From the NCBI RefSeq assembly GCF_002220095.1, contig NZ_CP022372.1, positions 4,870,501 to 4,934,500 of the forward strand: DNA of 64,000 nucleotides, given 5' to 3'. The notes beneath the pieces were generated by a model that saw only the letters and a list, made by a program, of their open reading frames with translations, was not told the origin of the DNA and made no database searches. The stretch comes from Bosea sp. AS-1 (GTDB taxonomy: Bacteria > Pseudomonadota > Alphaproteobacteria > Rhizobiales > Beijerinckiaceae). The translations under genes and the position numbers were made by a program. Shown piece by piece: positions 5,329-55,444 of the stretch. Each line of letters opens with the position of its first letter. The first letter of the stretch is position 1.

Positions 5329-5934
5329 CTACCCCTCCAGCGCGAAGCGAACCATCTCCGCCACGGAGCCCGCACCCAGCTTCTCCGCGAGGTTGGCCCG
5401 ATGCGTCTCGACCGTCCGCGGCGACACGTCGAGCGCGCGGGCGATCTCCTTGGTCGAGCGCCCGGCGGCGACGAGGTCGAGGATCTCGCGCTCGCGCGGC
5501 GTCAGCCGGCCAAGCAGCGCCTCGCGGTCGGCACGTACCGCCTGCGCCAGCTTACCCGCATCGAACACGGCGAAGGCAGCCTCGACTGCCTCGAGCAGAA
5601 CCTGCTCGTCGACGGGCTTGGTCAGGAAATCGACGGCGCCGGCCTTGAAGGCGCGCCGGCAGGCGGCGACGTCGCCATGGCCAGTGATCATGACCGTCGG
5701 CATGCGCGCGGCCTCACCCGCCATCCGCTCCAGCAACTGCAGGCCGGAAGTACCAGGCATGCGGATATCGACGACGAGGCAACCATCCTGCAGCGGATCC
5801 GGACGGTCCAGAAAAGCCTGGACGCCCGGGAAAGGCCGAGCGGTGAAGCCCATAGTGCGCAGCAGCAGGATGAGTGCGTCGCGCACATCGGTGTCGTCGT
5901 CGATCAGATAAACAATGCGCGGTGCCGGCTTCAT
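5329..5934 (-). CDS. FixJ/NarL-type response regulator
   Basis: The 201-aa protein has a receiver domain (residues 1-120) with acidic pocket DDD at 12-14, phosphoacceptor Asp56 (VVDIRMPG), Thr84 and Lys106. A LuxR-type helix-turn-helix follows at about 143-190 (LTPREREILDLVAAGRSTKEIARAL). It should bind DNA when phosphorylated by the kinase encoded just upstream, whose stop overlaps its ATG by four bases (ATGA). The palindrome 34 bp beyond its stop is a likely target, making the glcG/ankyrin unit a candidate regulon. Confidence 0.92.
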   Translation of the reverse strand: MKPAPRIVYLIDDDTDVRDALILLLRTMGFTARPFPGVQAFLDRPDPLQDGCLVVDIRMPGTSGLQLLERMAGEAARMPTVMITGHGDVAACRRAFKAGAVDFLTKPVDEQVLLEAVEAAFAVFDAGKLAQAVRADREALLGRLTPREREILDLVAAGRSTKEIARALDVSPRTVETHRANLAEKLGAGSVAEMVRFALEG

Positions 5935-7481
5935 TCCGCGGCGATCCTGGGCTCGGCAGCCAAAGCCGGGAGGCGGACGGTGAAGATCGCACCGCGCCGG
6001 GCACCGTTGCGGGCCGCGATGCGCCCACCCGCCGCCTGGACCAGCCGCTCGCAGAGCGGCAAGCCGAGCCCCATGCCGCTGCTCTTGGTCGTGAAGAAGG
6101 GTTCGAACAGACGCGCCAGATCCGCCTCCAACAGGCCCGGCCCCGCATCGGCAACCGCAATCTCGACCTCGCCGCCATCGACCGACGTGGCGAGCACGAT
6201 CTCGCGGCGCTCTTCGGGCAGGTTCTTGACAGCCTCGGCAGCGTTGCGGACGAGGTTGTGCACGACCTGCTCGATCGAAACCCGATCGAGCTTCGCCTGC
6301 GGCGCGAGCGGACTCAGCTCCAATCTGAGGGCGATGCCACGCTCCTGCAGGTCACGCCGCGTCAGCGCGACGACATTGCTGACGATCCGGTTGAGGTCGA
6401 TCGGCTGCGGCAGAGGCTCGCGTCGCATGACGTAGGCCCGCAGTCGCTCGAGGATCTCGCCGGCGCGGCGGGCGTGGCGGACATTCGCCTCCAGCACGCC
6501 GGTGAGCTCCTCCTGCGAGGCCGTGCCGGCACGGGCGAGGCGCAGGCCAGCCTGACTCTGGCTCAAGATGGCAGTAAGTGGCTGGGTGATCTCATGAGCG
6601 ATGCCGGAGGCCATCTCGCCAACGGTGTTGACGCGCATCGCATGGGCGAGCCGGGCGTCATGCTGATGCAGGCGCATCGCCTCCCGCGCCCGCCGGCTGG
6701 CACGCCGTTCGCGCAACATCGCAAGCAGCAACGCCACGCCGAGGCCGGCGACTACGGGCCAGCCGAACAGCAAGGCTGGCGGCAGAAGCTCGGCCAGGGC
6801 CGGCTTGCGCGTCAATGTCAGGACCATCGGCTGGGAACGGCTCCCGAGTGCCTTCCGAAACGACAGCGGGGGGACAGAGGTATCGATGGACACACCGCCA
6901 TGGCGGGCGATCACGGTTCCTTTCGCGTCCTGCAGGACGCGCGCGGCATTGCCCGGCAAGCCGCTTTCCGGTTCGGTCAACAACCCGGCATCGATCACGA
7001 GAACCAGCGCACGCGGCTGCGAGCCACTGTCCGGCACGCGCTTGACCAAGGCGTAGAACGGCGCGCCCGTTCGACTCGCCAGCGTCGCCGCCTGCCCGGG
7101 CAGGAGGTCGCCGATCTGCGCCGCCAGCGCGGCAGGGTCAAAATCAGCAAGGCTTGCCGGCTGAGCTCCGATGGGAACAGTCGTCGTGCCATCCAGCGCA
7201 ACCAACTCGACCGCGGCGATGCGCGGATAGAAGCGCTGCACCGCCTCGACCACGGCCCGGAAAGTCGCCGAACTCTCGCTGGAGCTCGCCAGAACCGCCG
7301 CGAGACTGGTGAGGTGGGCGTCGTGCTGGTCGACACGTTGCGAAACGACGCGGTGCAGCGTCGCGCCGTCCCGCTGAAGTGCGTCGTCCGCCCGCCAATA
7401 TTCGACGAGTGCACCGCCCCCGAGACCGGCCAGCGCCAGCGGGATCCAAAGGACGAAGAAGGTGGCGAGACGTTGCTTCAC
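5931..7481 (-). CDS. Membrane sensor histidine kinase, FixL/DctS-like
   Basis: The 516-aa protein has a transmembrane helix at about 7-27, a periplasmic sensor region (28-235) without a recognisable named domain, and a second transmembrane helix at about 236-255. The dimerisation/phosphoacceptor region has His296 (GEMASGIAHEITQPLTAI). An HATPase_c domain shows N box VHNLVRNAAEAV, G1 DAGPGL and G2 GMGLGL. It is translationally coupled to the response regulator and is the obvious partner. The signal is unknown. Confidence 0.9.
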   Translation of the reverse strand: MKQRLATFFVLWIPLALAGLGGGALVEYWRADDALQRDGATLHRVVSQRVDQHDAHLTSLAAVLASSSESSATFRAVVEAVQRFYPRIAAVELVALDGTTTVPIGAQPASLADFDPAALAAQIGDLLPGQAATLASRTGAPFYALVKRVPDSGSQPRALVLVIDAGLLTEPESGLPGNAARVLQDAKGTVIARHGGVSIDTSVPPLSFRKALGSRSQPMVLTLTRKPALAELLPPALLFGWPVVAGLGVALLLAMLRERRASRRAREAMRLHQHDARLAHAMRVNTVGEMASGIAHEITQPLTAILSQSQAGLRLARAGTASQEELTGVLEANVRHARRAGEILERLRAYVMRREPLPQPIDLNRIVSNVVALTRRDLQERGIALRLELSPLAPQAKLDRVSIEQVVHNLVRNAAEAVKNLPEERREIVLATSVDGGEVEIAVADAGPGLLEADLARLFEPFFTTKSSGMGLGLPLCERLVQAAGGRIAARNGARRGAIFTVRLPALAAEPRIAAE

Positions 7482-7561
7482 GAGACTGACCTAACTCGTG
7501 CCGAATCTACCGCGCCGGGGAGGTGGCGTCACGCTGCCATCGGGTCGACATCGGCACGGCG

Positions 7562-7592
7562 GCGTGGGATCGTGGTTGCCATGATCCCACGC
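7562..7592. repeat. 10-bp perfect inverted repeat in the kinase/SBP intergenic region
   Basis: GCGTGGGATC (7562-7571) and GATCCCACGC (7583-7592) flank an 11-nt spacer. It lies between divergent genes starting at 7481 (minus) and 7748 (plus). It could be an operator or, in a transcript, a stable hairpin. Confidence 0.5.
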
Positions 7593-7655
7593 GCCATGAT
7601 GCAGATGAAAGGCGAGCACCAGCCACGCGAAATTTCGGCGCAGCGGCTCTTGCAG

Positions 7656-7675
7656 ATATTTTAAGCTTGAAACAT
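7656..7675. promoter_or_regulatory. MarR-like 20-bp operator, copy 1
   Basis: ATATTTTAAGCTTGAAACAT is a pseudo-palindrome centred on AAGCTT, 72 bp before the SBP start codon. Its sequence matches the site at 14358-14377 in 18 of 20 positions. AT-rich palindromes of this size are typical of MarR-family operators in aromatic-catabolism operons; no such regulator gene is in the window. Confidence 0.6.
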
Positions 7676-7747
7676 TATGCCTCCGCGCGAGCCATAGAAG
7701 TCCAAGGGAACGCGGCCGCGCTTCAATTCGTCCGGGAGAGAGCATCG

Positions 7748-8920
7748 ATGACGACACTCAGGTTCGGTCTGGCACTCGGTTGCGGCGCGCTGGCTTTGTC
7801 CATCGCATCCGCACAGGCGCAGGAGCCGATCAAGATCGGCGTGGTCAGCGTGCTGACCGGCCCGGCCGCCTCGTTGGGGCAACAGGTCCGCGACGGCTTC
7901 CAGCTCGCGGTCGACAAGAACGGCGGCAAGCTCGGCGGCGTGCCGGTCAAGATCACGGTGATCGACGATGAGCTGAAGCCCGATGTCGCGGTCGACCGCG
8001 TGCGCAGCTTCGTCGAAAGTGAAAAGCCGACCTTCGTCGTCGGCCCGGTCTTCTCGAACATCCTCGGCGCAATCGCCAAACCCGTGCTCGATTCCGGCGC
8101 CTTCCTGATCAGCCCGAATGCCGGCCCGTCGACCATGGCTGGCAAGGCTTGCAACAAGAATTTCTTCGTCACCTCCTATCAGAACGATCAGGTGCATGAA
8201 GTCCTCGGCAAATATGCGCAGGACCAGAAATACAAGACCGCCTACATCATCGCGCCGAACTACCAGGCGGGTAAGGACTCGCTCGCCGGCTTCAAGCGTT
8301 ACTTCAAGGGCGAGATCGTCGACGAGGTCTATGCACCGCTGAACGCGATGGACTTCTCGGCCGACCTCGCCAAGATCGCCTCGACGAAGCCAGACGTCGT
8401 CTTCGCCTTCCTGCCCGGCGGCCTCGGCGTCAATTTCGTCAAGCAGTGGTCGCAGGCCGGCCTGCAGGGCAAGATCCCGTTCCTTTCCGCCTTCACGGTC
8501 GATGAATCGACCCTGCCGGCCCAGCAGGACGCCGCTGTCGGCCTCTATGGCGGCATGACCTGGGCGCCCAACATGGACAATCCGCAGACGAAGGACTTCG
8601 TCAAAGCCTACGAGGCGGCCTACAAGATCGTGCCCGGCTCCTACGCCCAGCAGGCTTATGACGCGGCGATGTTGATCGATTCCGCCGTAAAGGCGGCAGG
8701 CGGCGCCGGTAATGCCGACAAGCTGCGCGAGGCGATCAAGAAAGCCGATTTCACCTCGCTGCGCGGCAAGTTCAAGTTCAACACCAACGGCTACCCGATC
8801 CAGGACTTCTACCTCGTCAAGGTCGCCAAGCGCGCAGACGGCAAGTTCCAGACCGAAATCGCCGAGAAAGTGTTCAGCGACTACGCCGATCCGCACGCCA
8901 AGGATTGTGCGCTGAAGTGA
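7748..8920 (+). CDS. Branched-chain-type ABC transporter substrate-binding protein
   Basis: The 390-aa periplasmic protein has a signal peptide (about residues 1-22, ending SIASAQAQ). It then shows the Leu/Ile/Val-binding-protein fold: IKIGVVSVLTGPAASLGQQ, LISPNAGPSTMAGKAC, and the C-terminal LRGKFKFNTNGYPIQDFYLVKV typical of members serving aromatic acids or other carboxylates. Start 7748 follows GGGAGAG and gives a proper signal peptide; the frame is open further upstream but not family-like. It heads a five-gene importer operon with livHMGF. A strong hairpin follows the stop codon. The cargo is unknown; the flavoprotein sharing its operator hints at an aromatic compound. Confidence 0.92.
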   Translation: MTTLRFGLALGCGALALSIASAQAQEPIKIGVVSVLTGPAASLGQQVRDGFQLAVDKNGGKLGGVPVKITVIDDELKPDVAVDRVRSFVESEKPTFVVGPVFSNILGAIAKPVLDSGAFLISPNAGPSTMAGKACNKNFFVTSYQNDQVHEVLGKYAQDQKYKTAYIIAPNYQAGKDSLAGFKRYFKGEIVDEVYAPLNAMDFSADLAKIASTKPDVVFAFLPGGLGVNFVKQWSQAGLQGKIPFLSAFTVDESTLPAQQDAAVGLYGGMTWAPNMDNPQTKDFVKAYEAAYKIVPGSYAQQAYDAAMLIDSAVKAAGGAGNADKLREAIKKADFTSLRGKFKFNTNGYPIQDFYLVKVAKRADGKFQTEIAEKVFSDYADPHAKDCALK

Positions 8921-8931
8921 CGCGAAGCGTC

Positions 8932-8965
8932 ATCCTCGGGCGAAGCAGCGCTTCGGCCCGAGGAT
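8932..8965 (+). terminator. Intercistronic hairpin after the SBP gene
   Basis: ATCCTCGGG (8932-8940) pairs with CCCGAGGAT (8957-8965), with inner GAAG/CTTC pairing. It begins 11 nt after the SBP stop and lies before livH. No T run follows, so it probably acts as a partial attenuator or 3'-end protector that raises SBP output over the permeases (inference). Confidence 0.6.
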
Positions 8966-9038
8966 TTCGTCGTGGACAGCCGCTCGGGCCCGGCCCGGGC
9001 AGGACGTCCCGCGCCCGGCCCTGACGTTAGGACCGACC

Positions 9039-9965
9039 ATGACCCTGAGCCTCCTGATCGTCCAGCTCCTGAACGGGCTTCAGTTCGGCGTCCTGCTGTT
9101 CCTGGTCGCGGCCGGGCTGACGCTGGTCTTCGGCGTGATGGACTTCATCAATCTGGCCCACGGCGTCCAGTATATGCTGGGCGCCTATCTCGCCGTGACC
9201 TTCGTCAGCCTGACGGGCTCCTTCCTGCTGGGGCTCGCGCTGGCGCTCGCCGCTGCGCTGCTGCTTGGCCTCGCCTTCGAGTTCCTGGTCTTCCGCCACC
9301 TTTACGAGCGCGATCATCTCGACCAGGTGCTGGCAACCTTCGGACTGATCCTGCTCCTCAACCAGGCGGTGAAGATGATCTGGGGCGCTGCGCCGCTCTC
9401 GGTGCCGGTGCCCGAATTCCTCTCCGGCAATGTCCGGTTGATGGACGGCATCCTCTACCCCGTCTACCGCTTCGCCCTGATCGCGGCGGGCCTGGGCGTC
9501 GGCGCGCTGCTCTGGTTCGTGGTCGAGAAGACTCGCACCGGCATGCTGCTCCGGGCCGGAGCCTCGAATGCGCCGATGGTCTCGGCGCTCGGCGTCGACA
9601 TCCGCAAGCTGTTCATGATCGTCTTCGCCTTCGGCACCATGCTCGCCGGCTTTGCCGGGGCGATGGCGGCGCCGATCCTTTCGGTCGAACCCGGAATGGG
9701 TGACACCGTGCTGATCCTCGCCTTCGTCGTCATCGTCGTTGGCGGCATCGGCTCGATCCGCGGCGCCTTCGTCGGCGCGCTGATCGTCGGGCTCGTCGAC
9801 ACGCTCGGCCGCTCCTTCATGAACGACCTGCTCCGCCTGTTCATGGGACCGGCCTCGGCGCGCGCCACCGGTGCCGCCTTGTCCTCGATGCTGATCTATC
9901 TGGTCATGGCGGCCGTGCTGTTCGTCCGACCCGAAGGGCTGCTGCCGGCCAAGGGGCGCTCGTGA
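9039..9965 (+). CDS. livH: LivH-type ABC permease
   Basis: The 308-aa inner-membrane permease has about eight hydrophobic helices. Family signatures are LQFGVLLFLVAAGLTLVFGVMDFINLAHGVQYMLGAY near the N-terminus and VVGGIGSIRGAFVGALIVG near the C-terminus, where it contacts the ATPases. It pairs with the LivM product, whose start overlaps its stop by four bases. The start at 9039 is the first ATG after the hairpin and gives a normal-length protein. Confidence 0.92.
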   Translation: MTLSLLIVQLLNGLQFGVLLFLVAAGLTLVFGVMDFINLAHGVQYMLGAYLAVTFVSLTGSFLLGLALALAAALLLGLAFEFLVFRHLYERDHLDQVLATFGLILLLNQAVKMIWGAAPLSVPVPEFLSGNVRLMDGILYPVYRFALIAAGLGVGALLWFVVEKTRTGMLLRAGASNAPMVSALGVDIRKLFMIVFAFGTMLAGFAGAMAAPILSVEPGMGDTVLILAFVVIVVGGIGSIRGAFVGALIVGLVDTLGRSFMNDLLRLFMGPASARATGAALSSMLIYLVMAAVLFVRPEGLLPAKGRS

Positions 9966-10963
9966 GCATGGCCAGCGCTCCGCCGCATGGCGCAGCAACT
10001 GCTGCGCGACCGGCTTCTCCGATCGTGCGCCGGCTCGCACCACTCGTCATCTTCGCCCTGCTCGCCCTATTGCCGATCGCCGCCACGCTCGGCCTGCCCG
10101 CGCATTGGCTGACGCTGGTGACGCGGGCGATGATCTTCGCGATCGCGGCGCTCTCGCTCGATCTGATCCTCGGCATCGGCGGGCTGATCTCCTTCGGCCA
10201 TGCCGCCTTCATCGGCATCGGCGCCTATGGCGCCGGCATCCTGATTGCCGAGGGCCAGACCGAGCTGCTGGTGGCGCTGCCGGTCATCCTTCTCGCCTGC
10301 GCCATCTTCGCGACCGTCACCGGCTATGTCTCGCTGCGCACGCGCGGCGTCGCCTTCATCATGATCACGCTGGCTTTCGGGCAGATGGCCTTCTACTTCG
10401 CGCAGGCGCTCTCGGCCTATGGCGGCGACGACGGTCTGACGCTCTACGAAAAGAGTACGCTGCTCGGACATGACATCTTCGGCAACCGCACCGGCTTCTA
10501 TTATATCGCGCTCGGCACGTTGGCGGCCTGCTACGCGCTGGCGCGGCGGCTCGTGGCGTCGCGCTTCGGCCGCGTGCTGCGGGCGGCGCGGGAAAATGCC
10601 GTGCGCGTCACCGTCACCGGCTATGACGTCAACCATGTCCGGCTCGGTGCCTATGTGATCAGCGGGATGATGGCGGGGCTCGCCGGCTTCCTGCTCGCCA
10701 ACCAGACCGATTTCGTCAGCCCGGCCTATATGTCGTGGCCACGCTCGGGCGAGCTGATCTTCATGGTCGTGCTCGGCGGCGTCGGCTCGCTTTATGGTGC
10801 GATTCTCGGCGCCCTCGCCTTCCTCGTGACCGAGGACGTGCTCTCCAGCCTGACACAGAACTGGAAGGTCATCTTCGGCCCGCTGATCGTGCTCTTCGTG
10901 CTGTTCACCCATGGCGGCATCGCGGGCCTCCTCGCCAAGCTCAGGGGCGGCCGCAATGGCTGA
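9962..10963 (+). CDS. livM: LivM-type ABC permease
   Basis: This 333-aa multi-pass permease is the LivH partner. Hallmarks are IFAIAALSLDLILGIGGLISFGHAAFIGIGAY near residue 60 and VVLGGVGSLYGAILGALAF near the C-terminus. It is translationally coupled at both ends: its ATG overlaps the livH stop and its tail overlaps the livG start by eight bases. A basic, alanine-rich cytoplasmic N-terminus of about 20 residues precedes the first helix. Confidence 0.92.
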   Translation: MSMASAPPHGAATAARPASPIVRRLAPLVIFALLALLPIAATLGLPAHWLTLVTRAMIFAIAALSLDLILGIGGLISFGHAAFIGIGAYGAGILIAEGQTELLVALPVILLACAIFATVTGYVSLRTRGVAFIMITLAFGQMAFYFAQALSAYGGDDGLTLYEKSTLLGHDIFGNRTGFYYIALGTLAACYALARRLVASRFGRVLRAARENAVRVTVTGYDVNHVRLGAYVISGMMAGLAGFLLANQTDFVSPAYMSWPRSGELIFMVVLGGVGSLYGAILGALAFLVTEDVLSSLTQNWKVIFGPLIVLFVLFTHGGIAGLLAKLRGGRNG

Positions 10964-11705
10964 GCCAGCGCTCGCACTGAAAGGGCTCGCCAAGGCGTTC
11001 GGCGCGCTCAAGGTCACGAACGGAGTCGACCTCACCGTCGCTCCCGGCGAACTCCACGCGCTGATCGGCCCAAATGGGGCCGGCAAGACCACTCTGGTCC
11101 ACCAGATATCCGGGACGCTCCGGCCGGATTCCGGCACGATCCTGTTCAGCGGCCAGGACATCACCCGTCTGTCGCCGCAAGCGCGGGCACGGGCCGGGCT
11201 CGCCCGTACCTTCCAGATCACCTCGACCATCGCCTCGCTCTCGGTGCTGGAGAACGTCGCGCTCGGCGTGCAGGCGAGAAGCCCCCGCCCACTGTCTCTG
11301 TTCCGCGACGCGGCGCATGACGAAGCGCTGAACGCTCCCGCCTGGGAAGCGCTGGAAGCGGTTGGCCTCGCTGAGCGCGCCCATGCGCCCGCAGGCAGCC
11401 TCTCGCATGGCGAGAAGCGCGCCCTTGAAATCGCGATGGCGCTGACGCTGCAACCCAAGCTCATCCTGCTCGACGAGCCGCTGGCCGGCGTCGGGCACGA
11501 GGAGGGCGAGCGCCTGATCGCGCTGTTGAACAGCCTCAAGGGCCGCTTCGCCATGCTCCTGGTCGAGCACGACATGAGCGCCGTCTTCGCGCTCGCCGAC
11601 CGCGTCACCGTGCTGGTCTATGGCGGTGTCATCGCCTCGGGCGAGCCGGCGGCGGTGCGGGCCGATCCGGCCGTGCGGCAGGCCTATCTCGGCGAGGAGG
11701 GCTAG
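10956..11705 (+). CDS. livG: LivG-type ABC ATPase
   Basis: The 249-aa ATPase has Walker A GPNGAGKTT, a livG-type signature LSHGEKRALEIAMAL, Walker B LILLDEPLAGV and the H-loop LLVEHDM. It should energise the LivHM permease together with LivF. I chose ATG 10956, inside the end of livM, because family sequence (MAEPALALKGLAKAFGALK) begins there. Confidence 0.92.
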   Translation: MAEPALALKGLAKAFGALKVTNGVDLTVAPGELHALIGPNGAGKTTLVHQISGTLRPDSGTILFSGQDITRLSPQARARAGLARTFQITSTIASLSVLENVALGVQARSPRPLSLFRDAAHDEALNAPAWEALEAVGLAERAHAPAGSLSHGEKRALEIAMALTLQPKLILLDEPLAGVGHEEGERLIALLNSLKGRFAMLLVEHDMSAVFALADRVTVLVYGGVIASGEPAAVRADPAVRQAYLGEEG

Positions 11706-11707
11706 CG

Positions 11708-12406
11708 GTGCTCAGCGTCGAAGGGCTCGATGCCGGATACGGCGAGGCGCAGATCCTGTTCGGGGTCGATCTCACTGTGGGCGAAGGCGAGGTCGTGACC
11801 CTGCTCGGCCGCAACGGCATGGGCAAGACCACGACGGTGCGCTCGATCATGGGGCTCCTGCCTGCAAAGGCCGGCAAGATCGCCTTCGGCGGGCGCGACC
11901 TGACAGGTGCCGCGCCCTTCCGCATCGCCCAGGCCGGGATCGGGCTCGTGCCGGAGGGGCGCCAGATCTTTCCGACGCTCTCGGTCGAGGAAAACCTGAT
12001 CGCAACTGCGGCGGATCGCTCCGGCAAGAAGCGCTGGAACCTGGAGCGGATCTACGCTTTCTTTCCACGCCTGAAGGAAAGACGGGAAAATCGCGGCAAT
12101 CAGCTTTCCGGCGGCGAGCAGCAGATGCTGGCGATTGGCCGGGCGCTGATGACCAACCCGAAGCTGATCATCCTCGACGAGGCAACCGAGGGGCTCGCCC
12201 CCCTGATCCGCGAGGAAATCTGGGCCTGCCTGACGGCGCTGAAGGCAGAGGGCGAATCCATCCTCGTCATAGACAAGAATGTCGACGCCCTGGTTCGGAT
12301 CGCCGACCGACATATCGTACTGGAGAAGGGACGTGTCGTCTGGCGCGGTTCCAGCGCGGAGCTGCGCAGCGACAGTGCCGTGAAGGACCGGTTTCTCCAC
12401 TTCTAG
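11708..12406 (+). CDS. livF: LivF-type ABC ATPase
   Basis: This 232-aa ATPase begins with GTG two bases after the livG stop. It has Walker A GRNGMGKTTT, signature LSGGEQQMLAIGRAL, Walker B LIILDEATEGLAP and the LivF-type IDKNVDAL switch region (Lys where many ABC proteins have His). It completes the SBP-HMGF importer. Confidence 0.92.
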   Translation: MLSVEGLDAGYGEAQILFGVDLTVGEGEVVTLLGRNGMGKTTTVRSIMGLLPAKAGKIAFGGRDLTGAAPFRIAQAGIGLVPEGRQIFPTLSVEENLIATAADRSGKKRWNLERIYAFFPRLKERRENRGNQLSGGEQQMLAIGRALMTNPKLIILDEATEGLAPLIREEIWACLTALKAEGESILVIDKNVDALVRIADRHIVLEKGRVVWRGSSAELRSDSAVKDRFLHF

Positions 12407-12460
12407 CAGACCATGCCACCGCCACCGGCCCGCAGGCCGGCAGATGAGGAGAGCAAGACC

Positions 12461-12919
12461 ATGAACCCGCTGACTGCCGGCGTGACGCGCGCCAATGAAG
12501 GCCTCGACGGCATTTCCTGGAACATCCTCGGCCAGACCTATGTGCCGAAGACGCTGACCGAGGAGAGCTTCTCCTGGCATGCGACCTTCCCGCCCGGCAC
12601 CTTCGTGCCGCCGCATATCCACACGACGCAGGACGAGTTCATCTACATGCTGGAGGGGCGGCTCGACCTCCTGCTCGACGGCAAGGAAAGCTTCGCCACC
12701 GCGGGCGACCTGATCAAGCTGCCGCGCAATGTCCCGCACGGCCTGTTCAACAAGAGCGACGCGACAGTGAAATGCCTGTTCTGGGTCTCGCCGACGGCAC
12801 GGCTCTACGACCTGTTCTGGGGCATCCACTCCATGGCCGAGCAGAAGCCGGCCGATGTCGTTGCGCTCTCGGCCAAGCATGAGGTCGACTTCCTGCCGCC
12901 CCCGCCGGACGCGGGTTGA
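12461..12919 (+). CDS. Single-domain metal-binding cupin
   Basis: The 152-aa cytoplasmic protein has both cupin motifs intact. Motif 1 is PPHIHTTQDEFIYMLEG (His52, His54, Glu59) and motif 2 is PRNVPHGLFN (His93), giving a 3-His/1-Glu metal site. Such proteins range from dioxygenases and isomerases to ligand sensors. ATG 12461 follows GAGGAGAG, 54 bp after livF, so it is the last gene of the transporter operon. Being co-regulated with a flavin monooxygenase suggests a catabolic step (inference). The reaction is not known. Confidence 0.8.
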   Translation: MNPLTAGVTRANEGLDGISWNILGQTYVPKTLTEESFSWHATFPPGTFVPPHIHTTQDEFIYMLEGRLDLLLDGKESFATAGDLIKLPRNVPHGLFNKSDATVKCLFWVSPTARLYDLFWGIHSMAEQKPADVVALSAKHEVDFLPPPPDAG

Positions 12920-12948
12920 AGCAGGGAGAATTCTGTAAGGAACCGGGC

Positions 12949-13046
12949 CGTCATCGCGGGCTTGACCCGGGATTCATGCCGGAGCGCTGCCGGGCAAGGT
13001 TCAGGCATGGATCCCGGATCTCCGTTTCGCTGCGTCCGGGATGACT
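12949..13046. repeat. REP-like palindromic intergenic repeat, copy 1
   Basis: Nested inverted repeats fill the gap between two converging genes: outer GTCATCGCGGG and CCGGGATGAC, inner CGGGATTCATGCC (12968-12980) and GGCATGGATCCCGG (13004-13017). The motif recurs at 15687-15715. Such 'cccgggatccatgcc' elements are dispersed in many Hyphomicrobiales genomes. It may also end transcription from both sides. Confidence 0.6.
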
Positions 13047-13074
13047 CGCGCTTTCTGGAAACGCAGTCGTAGCG

Positions 13075-14319
13075 CTAAGTCTTCCGCGCGAGCTGCTCAG
13101 CCGAGAAGCCCGCCTTGCCGGCATAGCCCTTGACGATCTGCTCGCGCCTGGCGTGGTCGAGCACCTCGTCGACGTCGTCGAAGCCTTGCGGGGCCAACTC
13201 TTCCACAGCATCGATGACCCGCTCGGGGCCGCCGACCCGGTTCATCGCCACCACCTCCGCCGTCGCCGGCAGGCGCTCGGCCTCATAGGCCGCGAGCGCC
13301 TGGCGCGGATGCTCGGCCTTCGCCAACCAGTCGGCGAGGCAGCGCGCATCGAGGATCGCCTGTGAGGCACCGTTAGAACCGACCGGATACATCGGGTGTG
13401 CCGCATCCCCGAGCAGCGTGACGCGGCCATGGGTCCAGCACGGCAGCGGATCGCGGTCGCACATCGGATACTCCCAGAAGGCGGAGGTCGCACGGACCAG
13501 CCCGAGGATATCGACGCCCGGAACGCTGAAGCGGCGCGCGAAGGGCAACACGTCTTCCAGGCGGCCCGGCTTCGACCAGGCCTCCTTCGGCGGCGGCTTT
13601 TCCGGGTCGCCTGCGCGGATATTGACGACCCAGTTGGTCAGGCGCGTCTGCGGCGTCGCTCCCTGGCCGATCGGGTAGAGCACCAGCTTGCCGGCCATGC
13701 CACCGGCGATGATCATGCTCTCACCGTCGAGGAAGACCGGCCAATCGCAGGCCCCGCGCCACATCTGGACGCCCTGCCAGCGCGGCGGCCCCTGATGGGG
13801 GAAATAGAAGGAGCGAACGGCCGAGTGGATGCCGTCGGCGCCCACCAGGATGTCGCCGCGCGCCGTTTCGCCAGCCTCGCCGAAGCGCGCATCGCCAAAG
13901 TGAGCCGTGACGCCGCCTTCGTCCTGCAGGAAGCCGAGCAGGCGGCGGCCGGTGCGGACAGCATCCCTGCCCAGGCGCTCCCTCACCGCATCGCAGATCA
14001 CGCGCTGCAACCGACCGCGATGGATCGAGAATTGCGGCACCGGCGCGCCCGCATGCAGGCCTCGCAACTCGCGCCAGACCGCCTGGCCGAAGCGATTCAT
14101 GTAGATCAACTCGCGCGTGCGGATGCCAACTTCGTCGAGGGCCGGCAGCAAGCCGAGATCGGCGAGTTCGCGGATCGCATGCGGCAACGTGTTGATCCCG
14201 ACGCCGACCTCACGGATCTCGCTGGCCTGCTCGTAGACCGTCGCGCCGATACCCCGCGCATGGAGCATCAGCGCCAAGGTCAACCCGCCGATACCGCCGC
14301 CGACGATGATCACCCGCAT
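13075..14319 (-). CDS. FAD-dependent monooxygenase, PhzS/salicylate-hydroxylase-like
   Basis: The 414-aa group A flavoprotein hydroxylase has the FAD-binding GGGIGGLTLALMLHARG motif at its N-terminus, the DG motif GADGIHSAVR in the middle and the GD motif LLGDAAHPMYPVGSNGASQAILDA near residue 300. The closest recognised style is PhzS (phenazine N-methyl-carboxylate hydroxylase) and salicylate 1-monooxygenase. It should hydroxylate an aromatic ring using NAD(P)H and O2. ATG 14319 follows GAGGGAA and starts right at the FAD motif. A copy of the 20-bp operator lies about 40 bp upstream, tying it to the liv/cupin operon that faces it. Confidence 0.87.
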   Translation of the reverse strand: MRVIIVGGGIGGLTLALMLHARGIGATVYEQASEIREVGVGINTLPHAIRELADLGLLPALDEVGIRTRELIYMNRFGQAVWRELRGLHAGAPVPQFSIHRGRLQRVICDAVRERLGRDAVRTGRRLLGFLQDEGGVTAHFGDARFGEAGETARGDILVGADGIHSAVRSFYFPHQGPPRWQGVQMWRGACDWPVFLDGESMIIAGGMAGKLVLYPIGQGATPQTRLTNWVVNIRAGDPEKPPPKEAWSKPGRLEDVLPFARRFSVPGVDILGLVRATSAFWEYPMCDRDPLPCWTHGRVTLLGDAAHPMYPVGSNGASQAILDARCLADWLAKAEHPRQALAAYEAERLPATAEVVAMNRVGGPERVIDAVEELAPQGFDDVDEVLDHARREQIVKGYAGKAGFSAEQLARKT

Positions 14320-14357
14320 GCGTCCGTTCCCTCGAATGCGCCCGCTCACCGGGTCTG

Positions 14358-14377
14358 ATATTTTAAGTTTGAAATAT
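14358..14377. promoter_or_regulatory. MarR-like 20-bp operator, copy 2
   Basis: ATATTTTAAGTTTGAAATAT lies 39 bp upstream of the flavoprotein start codon (minus strand). It differs from copy 1 (7656-7675) at two positions. An AT-rich island in GC-rich surroundings supports a promoter/operator role. Confidence 0.6.
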
Positions 14378-14691
14378 CTCTTTTCGCTTTGTCAATCACG
14401 CGAGAAATGGCGGGCCCCGATGAGCCACGCTGAAGCCGAGCTCCGCAAAGACGCGACATCCGGTGTCTGAGCGTGAGACGTTCTGCAACCGGCCGAGCCC
14501 GGTTTTCAGCGCCGATACCGGAACAATGCCCCGGCATGGCGGCGTTGTTTTCATCGAGCTGTCACGTCTGCCCCGGATAAAGCCGGGCTGGCCGAAGGAT
14601 GGCTCGGGCCGCGCTCCAGCGGCCCACTGGCCTCCCTCTCGGACTCGCATGCCGGGTCGTTTCAATCTGCCACGCCTGAGAAGTTGAGATC
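14378..14691. other. Gene-free stretch upstream of ppk2
   Basis: I find no convincing gene here. The only structure is a short CCCGG-ataaa-GCCGGG inverted repeat near 14573-14588, which looks like a fragment of a dispersed palindromic repeat. The ppk2 promoter must lie here, but no consensus promoter stands out. Confidence 0.4.
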
Positions 14692-15597
14692 ATGTCGCCC
14701 GACCACATGGACCGAATCAAGGACGAGATCATCGACAGCTTCGACGAGGAGCTAGAACTGCAGCTCGAGGATGACCGCCTCGATGAGCTGGTTACGGAAG
14801 GGCTGGAAGATCCGGACGGCAGGACGCTCGATCGCAGGATCTATTTCCGCGAGCTCTTCCGGCTGCAGCACGAGCTCGTGCGCCTGCAGGACTGGGTCCA
14901 GCACAAGAAGCTCAAGGTCGTCGTGCTGTTCGAGGGGCGCGATTCCGCCGGCAAGGGCGGCGCCATCAAGCGCGTCACCCAGCGGCTCAATCCCCGCGTC
15001 TGCCGCGTCGTCGCCCTCCCCGCCCCGACAGAGCGCGAGCGCAACCAGTGGTATTTCCAGCGCTATGTCCCGCATCTGCCAACAGCGGGCGAAATGGTGC
15101 TGTTCGATCGCTCCTGGTACAACCGCGCCGGCGTCGAGCGCGTGATGGGCTTCTGCACGCCCGACGAGCTCGAGGAGTTCTTCCGCTCGGTTCCCGATTT
15201 CGAGCACATGCTCGTGCGCTCGGGCATCATCCTGATCAAGTACTGGTTCTCGATCACCGACGAGGAGCAGGAATTCCGCTTCCGGATGCGCATCGAGGAT
15301 CCGCTGAAGCAGTGGAAGCTCTCGCCGATGGACCTCGAAAGCCGCGTGCACTGGGAAGCCTATACCCAGGCCAAGGAAGAGATGCTGGAGCGCACCCACA
15401 CCGCGCATGCGCCTTGGTGGGTCGTGCAGGCGGTCGACAAGAAGCGGGCGCGCCTCAACATGATCGCGCATCTGCTCGGCCAGATTCCTTACGAAAACGT
15501 ACCGAAACCGGAAATCGTCCTGCCCGCACGCGTGCGGAACCCCGACTATCTGCGCCATCCGGTGCCGCCGGAGATGTATGTGCCGGAAGCCTATTGA
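14692..15597 (+). CDS. ppk2: Polyphosphate kinase 2
   Basis: The 301-aa class I PPK2 transfers phosphate between polyphosphate and nucleotides (typically GDP/ADP to GTP/ATP). Walker A is FEGRDSAGKGGAIKR at about residues 80-94. The Walker B/lid region is LFDRSWYNRAGVERVMGFC at about 140-158. The acidic N-terminal 45 residues, ending before RIYFRELFRLQHELVRLQDW, are usual for the one-domain form. The start has alternatives (ATG 14707). It stands alone, tail-to-tail with the next operon. Confidence 0.95.
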   Translation: MSPDHMDRIKDEIIDSFDEELELQLEDDRLDELVTEGLEDPDGRTLDRRIYFRELFRLQHELVRLQDWVQHKKLKVVVLFEGRDSAGKGGAIKRVTQRLNPRVCRVVALPAPTERERNQWYFQRYVPHLPTAGEMVLFDRSWYNRAGVERVMGFCTPDELEEFFRSVPDFEHMLVRSGIILIKYWFSITDEEQEFRFRMRIEDPLKQWKLSPMDLESRVHWEAYTQAKEEMLERTHTAHAPWWVVQAVDKKRARLNMIAHLLGQIPYENVPKPEIVLPARVRNPDYLRHPVPPEMYVPEAY

Positions 15598-15686
15598 GGA
15601 ACGGTGCGCGCTCTGACAGTTGCCGATCGAACGGAAGCGGGAATAGCCTGCTTCCATCGACAGCGTCGTCCCGGACCTGATCCTGG

Positions 15687-15715
15687 ATCCATGCCGGATT
15701 GGTTCCGGCATGGAT
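15687..15715. repeat. REP-like palindromic repeat, copy 2
   Basis: ATCCATGCCGGA (15687-15698) and TCCGGCATGGAT (15704-15715) form a perfect 12-bp stem around TTGGT. It sits between the converging ppk2 and amidohydrolase genes and shares the CATGCC/GGCATG core of the 12949-13046 element. Confidence 0.65.
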
Positions 15716-15734
15716 GCTCCGTGTTCCAGCCTCT

Positions 15735-17168
15735 CTATCTTTTCGGGAAGGTCAGCGGCGAGTAGTCCGTGACCGGCCGCTTCGCCCAATCGTTCTGCGG
15801 AGCGGCCGCCTCGGTCCGCTTCTGCCCTTCATGCAGGCGCCGCGCGGCTGCGGGGTAATCCATCGTCAGGACGGTCCCGTCCTGCACGACCAGCCGGCCG
15901 TCGACATAGACGCGATCGACGGCTCGCTCGGCCGCGGCATAGACCAGGCTGCGGACGGGATCGCGATGCGGCTGCATCATCGGATGGTCGAGGTCGATGA
16001 GGACGAGGTCTGCCTTCGTGCCCGCCTCCAGGCGGCCGATGTCGTTGCGGCCGAGCGCTGCGGCGCCGGCCGTGGTTGCCGCCTCGAACAGATCGGTCGT
16101 GGTCAGGGTGCGCGGGCTTTCCGCCATCAGCCGGGCGACATAGCCGGCATGGCGCATCTCCTCGAGCATGTTGTGCGGATAAGTGTCGGTGCCGAGCCCG
16201 ATCCTCACGCCCGCGCGGCGGTAGCGCCCGAAATCGTCGAGCGCGATGCCGCGGCGCATGAACACCGTCGGACAATGCGCGACACGCGTGCCGGTTTCGG
16301 CGAGCAAAGCGAGATCGCGCCGGCTGTGCCAGGCGACGCGCGGATAATCGTCGAGGAAAATGGCGTGGCCGATGATGCTCGTGTCTCCCAGCACGCCGAG
16401 CTGTTCGAGCCACTGGATCGGCGAAACGCCGTGCCGGCGCGTGATCTCGTGAAATTCGACCGTCGACTGGGCGGCATGGATCTGCCAGGGCAGTTTGCGG
16501 CGCTTCGCTTCGGCGTGGCTGTCCTTGATGAGCCCTTCGCTGCAGGTGTCGATCTGCGCCGGACAGACCATGCCGAAGAGGCGCTCGGAGGGATGCCTGT
16601 CCGCCTGCTCGATCAGGTCGAGCGCCTGGGCCATCGCCGCCTGCCCGGCCTTCTCGTCCCATTCGTATTCGACGACATGGCCGTTCTTGGTGTACCAGCG
16701 GGCCGAGCGGAACATCGGCGAGACGCAGACGCGTAGGCCGCTGTTCGCGGCGAGATCGAGCCAGGCCGGATGGGCAACGGACAGGTCGGCGACCGTGGTG
16801 ACGCCCGACAGCAGCAGCTCCGAATAGGCGACCTGGACGCAGTCCGGCACGGCTTCGGCGTCCGGCCGCAGGATCGGCATGAATTCATAGAGCGAGGAGT
16901 TGTAGAGGGCAGGCGAGCCGAGCTCGTCGAGGAAGCCCTTGTTCAGCGGCTCGCTCGACGGGTGCGAGTGGATGTTGACGAGGCCGGGCATGACCATGCG
17001 CCCGCGCCCGTCGACGGTCTCGTCCGCCTGGCCTTCATAGCGCTTGCCGACGAAGCGGATCGTGCCGTCCTCGAAGGCGACGTCGGCCCCATACAGGTAG
17101 ACATGGCGGGAGGCTTCCGCGTCCCAGGCGACGACGACGTCGGCATTCTTGATGACCGTGACCGTCAT
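15735..17168 (-). CDS. Amidohydrolase of the AtzA/TrzN/guanine-deaminase type
   Basis: The 477-aa metal-dependent hydrolase has HSH metal ligands His67 and His69 (NIHSHPSSEP), His231 (WQIHAAQ), His268 (IIGHAIFLDD) and Asp328 (GLGTDTYPHN), the mononuclear amidohydrolase set. Relatives deaminate or dechlorinate triazines and purine-like rings or hydrolyse amidines. ATG 17168 follows GGGAA; the frame remains open upstream only as an antisense-like shadow of the SBP gene. It is the last gene of an operon with an SBP, two permeases and a second amidohydrolase. The substrate is probably an N-containing compound delivered by that importer (inference). Confidence 0.88.
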   Translation of the reverse strand: MTVTVIKNADVVVAWDAEASRHVYLYGADVAFEDGTIRFVGKRYEGQADETVDGRGRMVMPGLVNIHSHPSSEPLNKGFLDELGSPALYNSSLYEFMPILRPDAEAVPDCVQVAYSELLLSGVTTVADLSVAHPAWLDLAANSGLRVCVSPMFRSARWYTKNGHVVEYEWDEKAGQAAMAQALDLIEQADRHPSERLFGMVCPAQIDTCSEGLIKDSHAEAKRRKLPWQIHAAQSTVEFHEITRRHGVSPIQWLEQLGVLGDTSIIGHAIFLDDYPRVAWHSRRDLALLAETGTRVAHCPTVFMRRGIALDDFGRYRRAGVRIGLGTDTYPHNMLEEMRHAGYVARLMAESPRTLTTTDLFEAATTAGAAALGRNDIGRLEAGTKADLVLIDLDHPMMQPHRDPVRSLVYAAAERAVDRVYVDGRLVVQDGTVLTMDYPAAARRLHEGQKRTEAAAPQNDWAKRPVTDYSPLTFPKR

Positions 17169-50566: not shown

Positions 50567-51346
50567 ATGCTCGACTCGTCGCCCTTCTCCGGTCCTGCGT
50601 CATCGAACGGCGAAAGCCATGGCGCCTTCGCGAGCCGGCGCCTGCGACAAGCTTTCGTGAGCTGTGAGCTCGTCCCGAGCCATTATGTCCACGAAGCCGA
50701 TCTCGAACAGCGTTTCGGACTCGGGCGCGCTGCCGTCCGCGTCGCGCTGACGGAGCTGGCCGTAGCCGGTTTCGTCATCCGGCACGCGCGGCAGGGCTGG
50801 CTCGTCGCACCGGTCGACGGGGCCCTGGCGAGTGCCATCGTCGAGGCCAGGCTGAGACTCGAACTCGCCCTGATCGAGCGCTCCCTGGACGACCAGCGTA
50901 AAAGCACCTTGCACGGCCTCCGTGGAGCGATCGAAGCCGTCTGGGGACGTGACGACCCAACAGCACGCGCCATGGCCCATCAGCTCTGCCGACAGGCTTA
51001 CGATCTGCTGGCGCAGAATGCAGGACGCTTCGTCGAAAGCTGGCTTCGCGACCTCTGGGATCATGCCGAGCGCCTGACACGCAGCCTGGAGCTGGCCGGG
51101 CAGGTGGTCGCTCCGAGTGACCCGCGCCCATTGCTGGCTGCGCTCCTTGCCGGCGACCGCGAGGCTGCGCGGCAAGCCCTTCATGACGAGCAGACACGCT
51201 TCAGGGACGCGGTCGCCCTGGGTTTCCTGGCCGCCGGGCACCTGTTCCCCCAGGCCCGGCACGCCCCTGTCCGCAGCCGCCGGCCAGATCGCAAGACGAA
51301 CGATCGAAAACCATCCCCCACCCTGTCCGAGGAGAAATCGCGATGA
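50567..51346 (+). CDS. GntR-family regulator (FadR subfamily)
   Basis: The 259-aa protein has an N-terminal winged helix-turn-helix (about 22-85, YVHEADLEQRFGLGRAAVRVALTEL in outline, then VIRHARQGWLVAP) and an all-helical FCD ligand domain (about 100-225). The C-terminal 30 residues are basic and unstructured. Its stop overlaps the next gene's ATG by four bases, so it is co-transcribed with the nine-gene operon it presumably controls. The ligand is probably the imported compound or its product. Confidence 0.88.
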   Translation: MLDSSPFSGPASSNGESHGAFASRRLRQAFVSCELVPSHYVHEADLEQRFGLGRAAVRVALTELAVAGFVIRHARQGWLVAPVDGALASAIVEARLRLELALIERSLDDQRKSTLHGLRGAIEAVWGRDDPTARAMAHQLCRQAYDLLAQNAGRFVESWLRDLWDHAERLTRSLELAGQVVAPSDPRPLLAALLAGDREAARQALHDEQTRFRDAVALGFLAAGHLFPQARHAPVRSRRPDRKTNDRKPSPTLSEEKSR

Positions 51347-52848
51347 GCCGTGTTTCGAAAGCCGCAGCCGCCTTCCTCGTTGCCACCGCGCTCGGCCTCG
51401 CGGCCGGGCCGGCGCTGGCCGCCAAGGATCGTTTCGTCGTCGACCTCGTCAACGAGCCGTCCTCGCTCGATCCGCAGGTGCAATGGAACCCGGACAGCTA
51501 CTATGTCTACCGCAACATCTTCGACAATCTCGTCACCCGCGACGACAAGGGCGCGATCATCCCGCAGGTCGCGACCGCCTGGAAGCAGATCTCGGATACC
51601 GAGATCGAGTTCGACCTGCGCAGCGACATCGCCTTCCATGACGGTTCGAAGCTGACTGCCGACGACGTCGTCTATAGCGTCAAGCGCATCACCGATCCGA
51701 AATTCGCCAGCCCCCAGCTCGGCCAGTTCGACAAGATCACCGACGCCGTCGCTCTCTCGCCGACCAAGGTGAAGCTCGTCACCGCCGGCCCCTACCCGGC
51801 GCTGCTGGCCCAGCTGGTCAAGCTCTCGATCGTGCCCAAGGCTGTGGTCGAGGCCGTCGGCAAGGACGCCTTCAACCTCAAGCCCGTCGGCAGCGGCCCC
51901 TACAAGTTCGAATCCTGGCAGCGCGGCGTGAATGTCCAGCTCACGCGCAACGACGCCTATTGGGGCACCAAGGCGCCGTTCCCGGCGGTGACCTTCCGCG
52001 CCGTCCCGGACGCGGCGACCCGCCTCGCCAACCTGCAGGCAGGTTCGAGCGACCTCGTCGTCACGCTCGATGCCGACCAGGCCGCCCAGCTCAAATCCGC
52101 GCCCAAGGCCCAGGCCCTGATCGGCCTGACCGAGCGCGTCGCCTATGTCCGGCTCAACACGACCAAGCCGCCCTTCGACAATCCCAAGCTCCGGCTGGCG
52201 GCGGCCTATGCGCTCGACAAGCAGGCGATGATCGACGGCCTGCTCGGCGGCCACGACAAGCCGGTGCCAGAGCTGCTGACACCGGCGATCTTCGGTTGGG
52301 TCGACGGCATCAAGGGCCCGGAATTCGACCTCGCCAAGGCCAAGGCACTCGTTGCCGAAGCAGGCCCAGCGGCGAAGGCGGAGATCGACCTCGCCACCGC
52401 GCCGGTCTTCGATCAGCGCATCGTTCAGGCAATCCAGCAGATGCTGGCAGAGGCCGGCTTCAACGTGAAGATCGCGATGTCCGACATGGCGACCTATCTC
52501 AAGCGGGCCCAGGCCGGGCCGGAGGCGACATCGCTGCTCAGCTTCGGCCGCTGGTCCTGCGCCTGCCAGGACGCGGACGGCGTGCTCTTCCCGCTTCTGC
52601 ACAAGAGCAGCGGCTGGTCGGCTTATCGCAACCCCAAGATGGACGCCCTGCTGGAGGAGGCCCGCACGACGCTCGACAAGGACAAGCGCCTCGCCGCCTA
52701 CAAGCAGGTGCATGAGATCGTCGCCACCGACGTGCCGGTCGTGCCGCTCTACCAGGCTGTGGTGATCTACGGCGCGGCGAAGAACTTGACCTTCCAGCCG
52801 ACGCCCAACGAAAGCATGTTCATCAACCGGATGAGCTGGAAGGATTGA
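51343..52848 (+). CDS. Peptide-type ABC substrate-binding protein (SBP_bac_5)
   Basis: The 501-aa periplasmic protein has a signal peptide ending AAGPALAAKD. Family blocks are LVNEPSSLDPQVQWNPDSYY, IAFHDGSKLTADDVVYSVKR and LNTTKPPFDNPKLRLAAAYALDK. A Cys pair (SCACQ) in the C-terminal half is unusual. ATG 51343 overlaps the GntR stop. It supplies the DppBC-type permeases encoded next. Confidence 0.92.
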   Translation: MSRVSKAAAAFLVATALGLAAGPALAAKDRFVVDLVNEPSSLDPQVQWNPDSYYVYRNIFDNLVTRDDKGAIIPQVATAWKQISDTEIEFDLRSDIAFHDGSKLTADDVVYSVKRITDPKFASPQLGQFDKITDAVALSPTKVKLVTAGPYPALLAQLVKLSIVPKAVVEAVGKDAFNLKPVGSGPYKFESWQRGVNVQLTRNDAYWGTKAPFPAVTFRAVPDAATRLANLQAGSSDLVVTLDADQAAQLKSAPKAQALIGLTERVAYVRLNTTKPPFDNPKLRLAAAYALDKQAMIDGLLGGHDKPVPELLTPAIFGWVDGIKGPEFDLAKAKALVAEAGPAAKAEIDLATAPVFDQRIVQAIQQMLAEAGFNVKIAMSDMATYLKRAQAGPEATSLLSFGRWSCACQDADGVLFPLLHKSSGWSAYRNPKMDALLEEARTTLDKDKRLAAYKQVHEIVATDVPVVPLYQAVVIYGAAKNLTFQPTPNESMFINRMSWKD

Positions 52849-52854
52849 GCCGCG

Positions 52855-53781
52855 GTGTCGGGTTTCCTGCTCCGGCGGCTGGGCCAGGCGCTCGTCACCA
52901 TCCTCGGGGTGGTGACGCTGATCTTCTTCGTCCAGCGCCTGACGGGAGACCCGACCTACCTGCTCGTGCCGGAGACGGCGACGCAGGCCGATATCGCGGC
53001 CTTGCGCCACCAGCTCGGCTTCGACCGGCCGCTCGTCGTGCAGTATCTCGACTTCCTCGGCGAACTCGTCCGCTTCGACCTCGGCCAGTCCGTCGTGCAG
53101 CGCGTGCCAGTGACCACGATCATCGCCTCGCGCCTGCCCTATACGCTGATGCTGGCGGCAGGCGCGCTCATCGTCGCCTGCGGCATCGGCGTGCCGATCG
53201 GCATCCTGCTCGCGATCTTCCGCAACTCGCCCGCGGCGAAGGCCGCCGCCGGCTTCGTCCTCGCCGCGCAGAGCATGCCGACCTTCTGGAGCGGCATCCT
53301 GATGATCCTGGTGTTCTCGGTGCTGCTCGGCTGGCTGCCGCCCTCCTCCACCGGCGATCTCTCGCATCTCGTCATGCCCTCCTTCGCGCTCGGCCTGTTG
53401 AGCATGGCGACCTTCGCGCGGATCACCCGCTCGGCGCTGCTCGACGAACTCTCGAAGGACTATGTCCGCACCGCTCGCTCGCGCGGCGTCCGCAGCGGAC
53501 GCCTGCTGATCCGCCATCTCGCCCGCAATGCCTCGATCCCGGTGATCACCGTCGCCGCCCTCGAAATCTCGAACCTGCTGGCCGGCGCCGTCATCGTCGA
53601 GACGGTCTTCGCCTGGCCCGGCCTCGGACAAGTGACGGTGCAGGCGATCCTGGCGCGTGATTTCATGATCGTGCAGGGCGTGGTGCTGCTCGGCGCCTTC
53701 GTCACCGTGCTGCTCAACCTGCTTTCGGACCTGCTCTACAGCCTGGTCGATCCGCGCATCGTGCTGGAGGGCGCGCGGTGA
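52855..53781 (+). CDS. DppB-type ABC permease
   Basis: The 308-aa permease begins at GTG 52855, six bases after the SBP stop, with FLLRRLGQALVTILGVVTLIF. It has RLTGDPTYLLVPETAT, QSMPTFWSGILMILVFSVLLG and GAVIVETVFAWPGLGQVTVQAI. It overlaps the next permease gene by four bases. Confidence 0.92.
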   Translation: MSGFLLRRLGQALVTILGVVTLIFFVQRLTGDPTYLLVPETATQADIAALRHQLGFDRPLVVQYLDFLGELVRFDLGQSVVQRVPVTTIIASRLPYTLMLAAGALIVACGIGVPIGILLAIFRNSPAAKAAAGFVLAAQSMPTFWSGILMILVFSVLLGWLPPSSTGDLSHLVMPSFALGLLSMATFARITRSALLDELSKDYVRTARSRGVRSGRLLIRHLARNASIPVITVAALEISNLLAGAVIVETVFAWPGLGQVTVQAILARDFMIVQGVVLLGAFVTVLLNLLSDLLYSLVDPRIVLEGAR

Positions 53782-54635: not shown

Positions 54636-54646
54636 AGGAAACGCTC

Positions 54647-55432: not shown

Positions 55433-55444
55433 GGAGGCACGGAC

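Follow-up and report, generated by a model that had tools for sequence, protein, structure and literature searches.

Two near-identical 20-bp palindromes lie in a 64,000-nucleotide stretch of the genome of Bosea sp. AS-1 (hereafter, the window), one ahead of genes for an ATP-binding cassette (ABC) importer and a cupin, the other ahead of a convergent gene for a PhzS-type FAD monooxygenase (FMO), and the question that they raise is which regulator acts on them and which compound the seven genes serve. The answer suggested by our analysis, to which we assign a probability of roughly 0.78, is that one trans-encoded MarR repressor would act at four operators, two in the window and two at a distant locus, and that the window unit would feed an anthranilate-CoA pathway encoded at the latter.

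The two 20-mers, W1 and W2 (Table 1), were found at the coordinates given in the original prediction and are identical at 18 of 20 positions. Each is an imperfect palindrome, with three mismatches against its own reverse complement; W1 precedes the start codon of the gene for the substrate-binding protein (SBP) by 72 bp and W2 that of the FMO gene by 38 bp. They are the sole places with up to three mismatches both in the window, where dinucleotide shuffling produced such places in 0 of 100 cases, and across the genome of 5,838,389 bases. In same-genus relatives, the operator is the best conserved stretch of the upstream regions of both genes: identity to the window amounts to 96% at the SBP site, versus 47% over the rest of the 180 bp (n = 28, window included), and to 85% at the FMO site, versus 34% for its surroundings (n = 27, window included). 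W1 appears to overlap a promoter, read by eye, within which the flanking bases are likewise conserved in the same-genus relatives, and its position between TTGCAG and CATTAT would allow a bound repressor to block RNA polymerase. A terminator scan gave one match beside W2, at chance level only.

The regulator had been predicted to act from elsewhere, and a candidate was indeed located outside the window. No MarR gene is present among the annotated window genes, and none of the 70 genomic MarR_2 matches listed (150 of 245 candidates scored) falls in the window, whereas a MarR gene with two similar sites of its own resides 1.4 Mb away, at C3:3465346-3465909. A genome search with the MarR protein of a relative in which this gene adjoins the FMO cluster (locus L186) yielded one clear match, C3:3465382-3465864 (66% identity, E 2.9e-67), the next-best being at 35% and 7.4e-19; the protein contains the domains PF12802 (36.4 bits, cut-off 27) and PF01047 (30.6 bits, cut-off 24.6). 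Beside it on the minus strand of this distant locus (L224) lies a gene for a single 778-amino-acid (aa) protein joining FAD_binding_3 and Oxidored_FMN, an orthologue (69%), without internal stop, of a 785-aa protein; we take this combination of FAD and old yellow enzyme (OYE) domains to be of the 2-aminobenzoyl-CoA monooxygenase/reductase type (ACMR). The plus strand carries genes for a short-chain dehydrogenase/reductase (SDR), the MarR protein, an enoyl-CoA hydratase, an acyl-CoA dehydrogenase, a CoA ligase and a RidA-type protein. The best match of the ligase in the PDB is anthranilate-CoA ligase 4wv3 (E 5.8e-98), with benzoate-CoA ligase 2v7b at 5.8e-79. The intergenic region between ACMR and SDR contains TTATTTTAAACCTGAAATGT and, on the reverse strand, ATATTTTAAGTCTCAATCAA, which stand 30 and 25 bp ahead of the two start codons. 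The seven window genes, originally described as an uptake-plus-oxidation module, do not seem to be self-contained but to make up one half of a regulon, the other half of which, with the MarR gene and the anthranilate-CoA type pathway, lies 1.4 Mb away.

A widened pattern, WTATTTTAARYYTGAAAYRW, occurs at only four places in the genome, namely, W1, W2 and the two ACMR-SDR sites, and its reversed control at none; instead of being scattered over many unrelated positions, an outcome that would have spoken against the predicted operator, the motif heads a catabolic or transport unit in each case. The widened pattern was written after sight of the sites at the MarR locus, which counts against it, and a fairer motif test is a weight matrix trained on 55 SBP- and FMO-promoter sites (13 types) alone, with the MarR loci held out. 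When this matrix was run on 30 same-genus MarR loci, of 44 match rows, each of the 30 had both its best and its second-best hit in the intergenic stretch between ACMR and SDR (218 to 371 bp), with best scores of 24.4 to 30.7, second scores of 10.0 to 25.5 and third scores of at most 9.0. Scores of 20 or more were reached 56 times in 560 kb (window and training loci), twice per source and once in each of two truncated loci. Hits of the original pattern with up to three mismatches also occur about 1 kb or less from the MarR gene in at least nine same-genus genomes (G003, G005, G007, G011, G014, G017, G022, G029 and G036). The four-site pattern and the matrix hits at the MarR locus agree with the proposal that the sites are operators of one MarR-type regulator, and we consider it very probable that the window operators are served by the MarR protein of the distant ACMR locus.

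In some relatives, the two parts of the putative regulon are contiguous. Strain YIM 77505 (L170) has a single locus consisting of a site, ACMR and FMO, the convergent cupin-livFGMH-SBP genes, another site and SDR-MarR-hydratase-dehydrogenase. The gene order is the same in Alsobacter soli and A. metallidurans (L159 and L160), in which the site preceding ACMR has two to three mismatches and, in L159, the ACMR-FMO gap is 38 bp. A MarR gene with operator-like sites adjoins the FMO cluster in L159, L160, L170, L175 and L186, and MarR and ACMR are present in L174, L176 and L196 with a weaker site or none. At thresholds of E ≤ 1e-25 for MarR, 1e-150 for ACMR and 1e-60 for FMO, the former two were each detected in 36 of 37 same-genus genomes, both being absent from G016 only. 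Among 24 genomes of other families, ACMR was found in five, all of them with MarR (hypergeometric p 0.00014), and MarR alone in G060. Six of the 24 have an FMO match, two of which (G041 and G060, 41 and 47% identity) were dropped as unlikely orthologues; ACMR accompanies the FMO in three of the remaining four (G053, G055 and G056; p 0.018) and is absent in G040, and G046 and G049 encode ACMR and no FMO at E 1e-60.

The window unit itself is well conserved. All seven genes in the same order, with both sites at up to four mismatches, were recovered in 26 of 28 same-genus loci (L062-L089, fetched because they carry the operator pattern and representing a subset of the pattern-bearing genomes), and the remaining loci, L073 and L088, are truncated by a contig end; the flanking PPK2 and amidohydrolase genes were matched in L086 only. 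One of these loci has livH as two overlapping tblastn pieces (L089:10644-11566), a possible frameshift or assembly error. A site-independent search (E ≤ 1e-60) detected the FMO in 33 of 37 same-genus genomes, at 81% identity or more in 30 and at 71% in three; the genomes lacking it are G002, G016, G021 and G027, with the cluster of G021 cut by a contig end. An orphan importer-oxidase cluster found in most of the same-genus genomes would gain a definite regulator and a four-site regulon. Further afield (80 of 141 confirmed FMO stretches, from named genomes, were examined), 59 FMO loci lie outside the close Bosea group, 38 of them with the cupin and 10 with ACMR, their flanks often being cut by contig ends. 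A record titled Mycobacterium sp. KBS0706 (L207) shows the FMO and cupin layout of Inquilinus limosus (L202), and its title may be wrong. In L076 (7349-9591) and L080 (9597-11830), both from Bosea-type genomes, eutBC-type (ethanolamine ammonia-lyase) genes are inserted between livF and the cupin gene; such open reading frames also occur in the FMO loci L140 and L148 and in L188:1-2095, and one contig of this set, from an uncultured member of the Xanthobacteraceae, has them beside its FMO gene. A role in ethanolamine use was considered and rejected: the genome's own eutB lies elsewhere, 0 of 22 eutB loci have a site within 1.5 kb (best, seven mismatches), and eutB is missing from 11 same-genus genomes whose FMO is at 81% identity or more.

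Additional operators in relatives bear on the compound at which the regulon is directed and lend strong support to anthranilate. Anthranilate is a product of tryptophan, and a matrix site scoring above 31 heads the gene for tryptophan 2,3-dioxygenase in 15 of the 19 same-genus genomes that have this enzyme; G013 has a weak site (14.5) at the same place, and G026, G031 and G034 have none. The operator-bearing dioxygenases are of two types, 282-284 aa (nine genomes) and 358-359 aa (six genomes), and the like operator in front of both (L096:7768-7787, L267:4046-4065 and 13 further loci) looks as if it had been recruited twice. In the nine genomes with the short type, a divergent gene of 392-407 aa uses the same site; its product in L096 is an aminotransferase-V protein with a KYNU_C score of 26.8 bits, just below the cut-off of 27, a lead towards a kynureninase-like function. 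A divergent DUF1684 gene (L267:3170-3988) shares the operator of the 358-aa dioxygenase. Altogether, 24 loci with extra sites, chosen from the hits of the original pattern, were examined, 15 with a dioxygenase, three with an esterase, three with an SBP, one with a hydratase and two without a convincing gene. The esterase is a carboxylesterase 26-29 bp behind a strong operator (L093:8697-8716, L094:8371-8390 and L095:7490-7509; genomes G008, G029 and G033), assigned by PF00135 in L093 and by eye from a like N-terminus in L094 and L095, which possibly frees anthranilate from esters. A second Liv-type SBP has a like operator at L257:3979-3998, L258:4012-4031 and L273:3999-4018 (G003, G005 and G029; annotated in L257), and the site in L260 (37.8) lies 112 bp ahead of an enoyl-CoA hydratase gene; those in L269 (31.0) and L275 (23.4) have no convincing gene start and were treated as chance occurrences.

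Judging from the two dioxygenase types, the carboxylesterase and the second SBP, the regulon seems to gather anthranilate from several origins. The original assignment to aromatic catabolism is supported, with an aromatic acid as the compound concerned, and can apparently be narrowed: because of the ligase match, the RidA-type gene in the operon and the dioxygenase sites of the relatives, the regulon seems to converge on anthranilate, and the window unit probably feeds or serves its catabolism. The genome under study has no match to tryptophan dioxygenase and, accordingly, no such operator site, and a search for the kynureninase-like protein of L096, conducted without a positive control, gave no match in it either; kynurenine is therefore unlikely to be the compound imported here.

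The gene content of the window unit (Table 1) is as originally described, and uptake coupled to oxidation appears to be a sensible reading of it. The importer is of the HAAT/Liv type and complete, with a Peripla_BP_6 SBP, two BPD_transp_2 permeases and two ATPases. The FMO passes the family model NF005720 (569.1 bits, cut-off 400). In the cupin, H52, H54 and E59 are invariant in 23 of 23 sequences and H93 in 22 of 23 (Y in L191); a structure model of medium confidence has the quercetinases YxaG and Ni-quercetinase as its top fold matches, at 16-22% identity and with other cupins within 1 Z unit. The cupin had been proposed to be either an enzyme or a sensor. Since the 3-His-1-Glu pattern is kept and Pfam reported no DNA-binding domain, a metal enzyme is more likely, and the sensor was rejected. 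Assignment as a 3-hydroxyanthranilate or gentisate dioxygenase was likewise rejected, the Pfam matches being confined to Cupin_2, Cupin_1, EutQ and AraC_binding. Elsewhere in the window (51343-58862), genes for a gamma-glutamyltranspeptidase and a polysaccharide deacetylase accompany oligopeptide-type ABC genes, and the group may serve in peptide uptake.

Table 1. Coordinates of the operators, putative promoter and genes of the importer-oxidase unit in the window.
Feature	Position	Strand	Basis
Operator W1 (ATATTTTAAGCTTGAAACAT), 5' of the importer-cupin unit	7656..7675	+	Pattern search, conservation, weight matrix
Operator W2 (ATATTTTAAGTTTGAAATAT on the + strand), 5' of the monooxygenase	14358..14377	-	Pattern search, conservation
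Putative promoter overlapped by W1: TTGCAG (7650-7655), 17-bp spacer, CATTAT (7673-7678)	7650..7678	+	By eye
SBP (Peripla_BP_6), closest solved chain 4evq	7748..8920	+	Domain and structure-sequence match
LivH-type permease	9039..9965	+	Family models
LivM-type permease	9968..10963	+	Family models
LivG-type ATPase	10956..11705	+	Family models
LivF-type ATPase	11708..12406	+	Family models
Monocupin, 3-His-1-Glu pattern (H52, H54, E59, H93)	12461..12919	+	Pfam, alignment, structure model
PhzS-type FAD monooxygenase (FMO; PRK07538 family)	13075..14319	-	Family model

Computation establishes the four sites, their conservation, their placement at the starts of genes and the clustering of these genes at one locus in relatives, and it suggests the following scheme. 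The MarR protein would repress transcription through W1, W2 and its own two operators between ACMR and the SDR operon, and accumulation of anthranilate or its CoA thioester would release it, so that all four promoters become active at once. The upper end of the route would be encoded in the window, with the ABC importer bringing in an aromatic acid on which the monooxygenase and the metal cupin act before the anthranilate-CoA pathway of the distant locus takes over. We infer that this PhzS-like flavoprotein and quercetinase-like cupin turn the imported compound into anthranilate. One conceivable chemistry, to which we give little credence, is that the FMO hydroxylates an imported 4-oxoquinoline-type acid, such as kynurenate, beside the carbonyl, the cupin splits the ring with release of carbon monoxide (CO), and alpha/beta hydrolases of the relatives free anthranilate from the resulting N-acylanthranilate. 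Alpha/beta hydrolases are encoded 5' of the SBP gene in five relatives (L123, L171, L199, L203 and L209), that of L203 resembling kynurenine formamidase.

It is possible, although doubtful, that the compound imported is anthranilate itself, or a closely related 2-substituted benzoate, and that the monooxygenase and cupin form a side branch oxidizing anthranilate or an overflow product. The best solved relative of the SBP, 4evq, is presumably a benzoate-type binding protein, and the occurrence of the cluster in genomes without tryptophan dioxygenase implies that no kynurenine step is required for the compound taken up; yet the linkage of FMO and cupin extends more widely than the anthranilate-CoA genes, as seen in the 59 loci outside the close Bosea group, which suggests that the pair carries out a reaction of its own. 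Degradation of salicylate via salicylyl-CoA is brought to mind by NF006101 (bifunctional salicylyl-CoA 5-hydroxylase/oxidoreductase), which the ACMR orthologue of L187 passes (1132.6 bits, cut-off 1078), but is very unlikely given a ligase closest to anthranilate-CoA ligase, an imine/enamine deaminase-type (RidA-type) gene in the operon and relatives in which the operator heads the gene for tryptophan 2,3-dioxygenase, which opens the route to anthranilate. Similarly improbable is the binding of another MarR-family protein to the window sites, the motif being a common MarR-type palindrome. The number of MarR_2 matches in the genome leaves room for such a protein, and MarR paralogues can have similar operators; however, no further genomic place lies within three mismatches of the widened pattern, and in the search with the L186 MarR protein the gene at the ACMR locus stands well ahead of the next match.

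Several observations weigh against a single MarR regulon feeding anthranilate catabolism. With respect to the sites, the operators of the MarR locus are four mismatches away from the original pattern, the second-best matrix score at the MarR locus is low in certain genomes (10.0 to 12), Alsobacter has weak sites (four to five mismatches) near SBP and SDR, and a consensus promoter scan reported none at W1 or W2. Outside the genus, the sites before tryptophan 2,3-dioxygenase are weak in G049 (20.3) and G053 (18.3), and no convincing one was found in G038, G046, G056 and G060; the lack of a dioxygenase match in the genome under study belongs here as well. Moreover, FMO, cupin and importer occur without ACMR in G040, and in many loci with these genes the flanks retrieved contain neither MarR nor operator, so that the unit need not be tied to the anthranilate route. 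Conversely, G002 and G027 have MarR and ACMR and no FMO, and G014 and G036 hold a second MarR, 50% identical. Finally, the bacteria compared are related, and the counts are therefore not independent events.

Taken together, the regulon is well supported and belongs to a known kind of pathway, with an accessory module of which we found no description: a limited literature search, mainly at title and abstract level, retrieved neither the regulon nor an FMO-cupin pair feeding anthranilate. If the pair does make anthranilate, it would represent an upper pathway not found described and common to many alphaproteobacteria. PhzS is the flavin monooxygenase of phenazine biosynthesis, whereas the neighbours of the window FMO are an importer and a cupin; since no phenazine-type genes were seen among the ten annotated window genes (5931-17105), to which this search was confined, we do not call the protein PhzS. 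Quercetinases carry 3-His-1-Glu metal ligands, a pattern also present in the cupin, and YxaG and Ni-quercetinase head the fold matches of its model; the low identity and the similar scores of other cupins noted above set it apart from them. Compared by regulator only, the MarR protein has weak sequence similarity (4.1e-5) to 7kfo, which we take to be a MarR structure from a study of the auxin catabolism loci iad and iac. Both loci are described as controlled by MarR regulators, iad ending in anthranilate (PMC9613470), and thus resemble the present case as aromatic pathways under MarR control.

The closest parallel is the aerobic 2-aminobenzoyl-CoA pathway outlined for Azoarcus evansii and Arthrobacter sp. 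Rue61a (PMC4539516, PMC3534580), which likewise involves a CoA ligase, a two-domain FAD and OYE-type protein and beta-oxidation-type enzymes; A. evansii was compared by its pathway enzymes. By contrast, the operon described here includes a MarR gene and has a distant, probably co-regulated importer-FMO-cupin unit. The quinaldine upper pathway of Rue61a, in which an FAD monooxygenase and then a CO-releasing 2,4-dioxygenase lead to anthranilate and the CoA pathway (PMC3534580), is alike in logic, with a monooxygenase and a dioxygenase feeding anthranilate. The known 2,4-dioxygenase Hod is, however, a cofactor-free member of the alpha/beta-hydrolase family (PMC6479552), whereas the candidate in the window is a metal cupin of another fold, which, if it does release CO, would be the cupin counterpart to the cofactor-free dioxygenases of quinaldine degraders.

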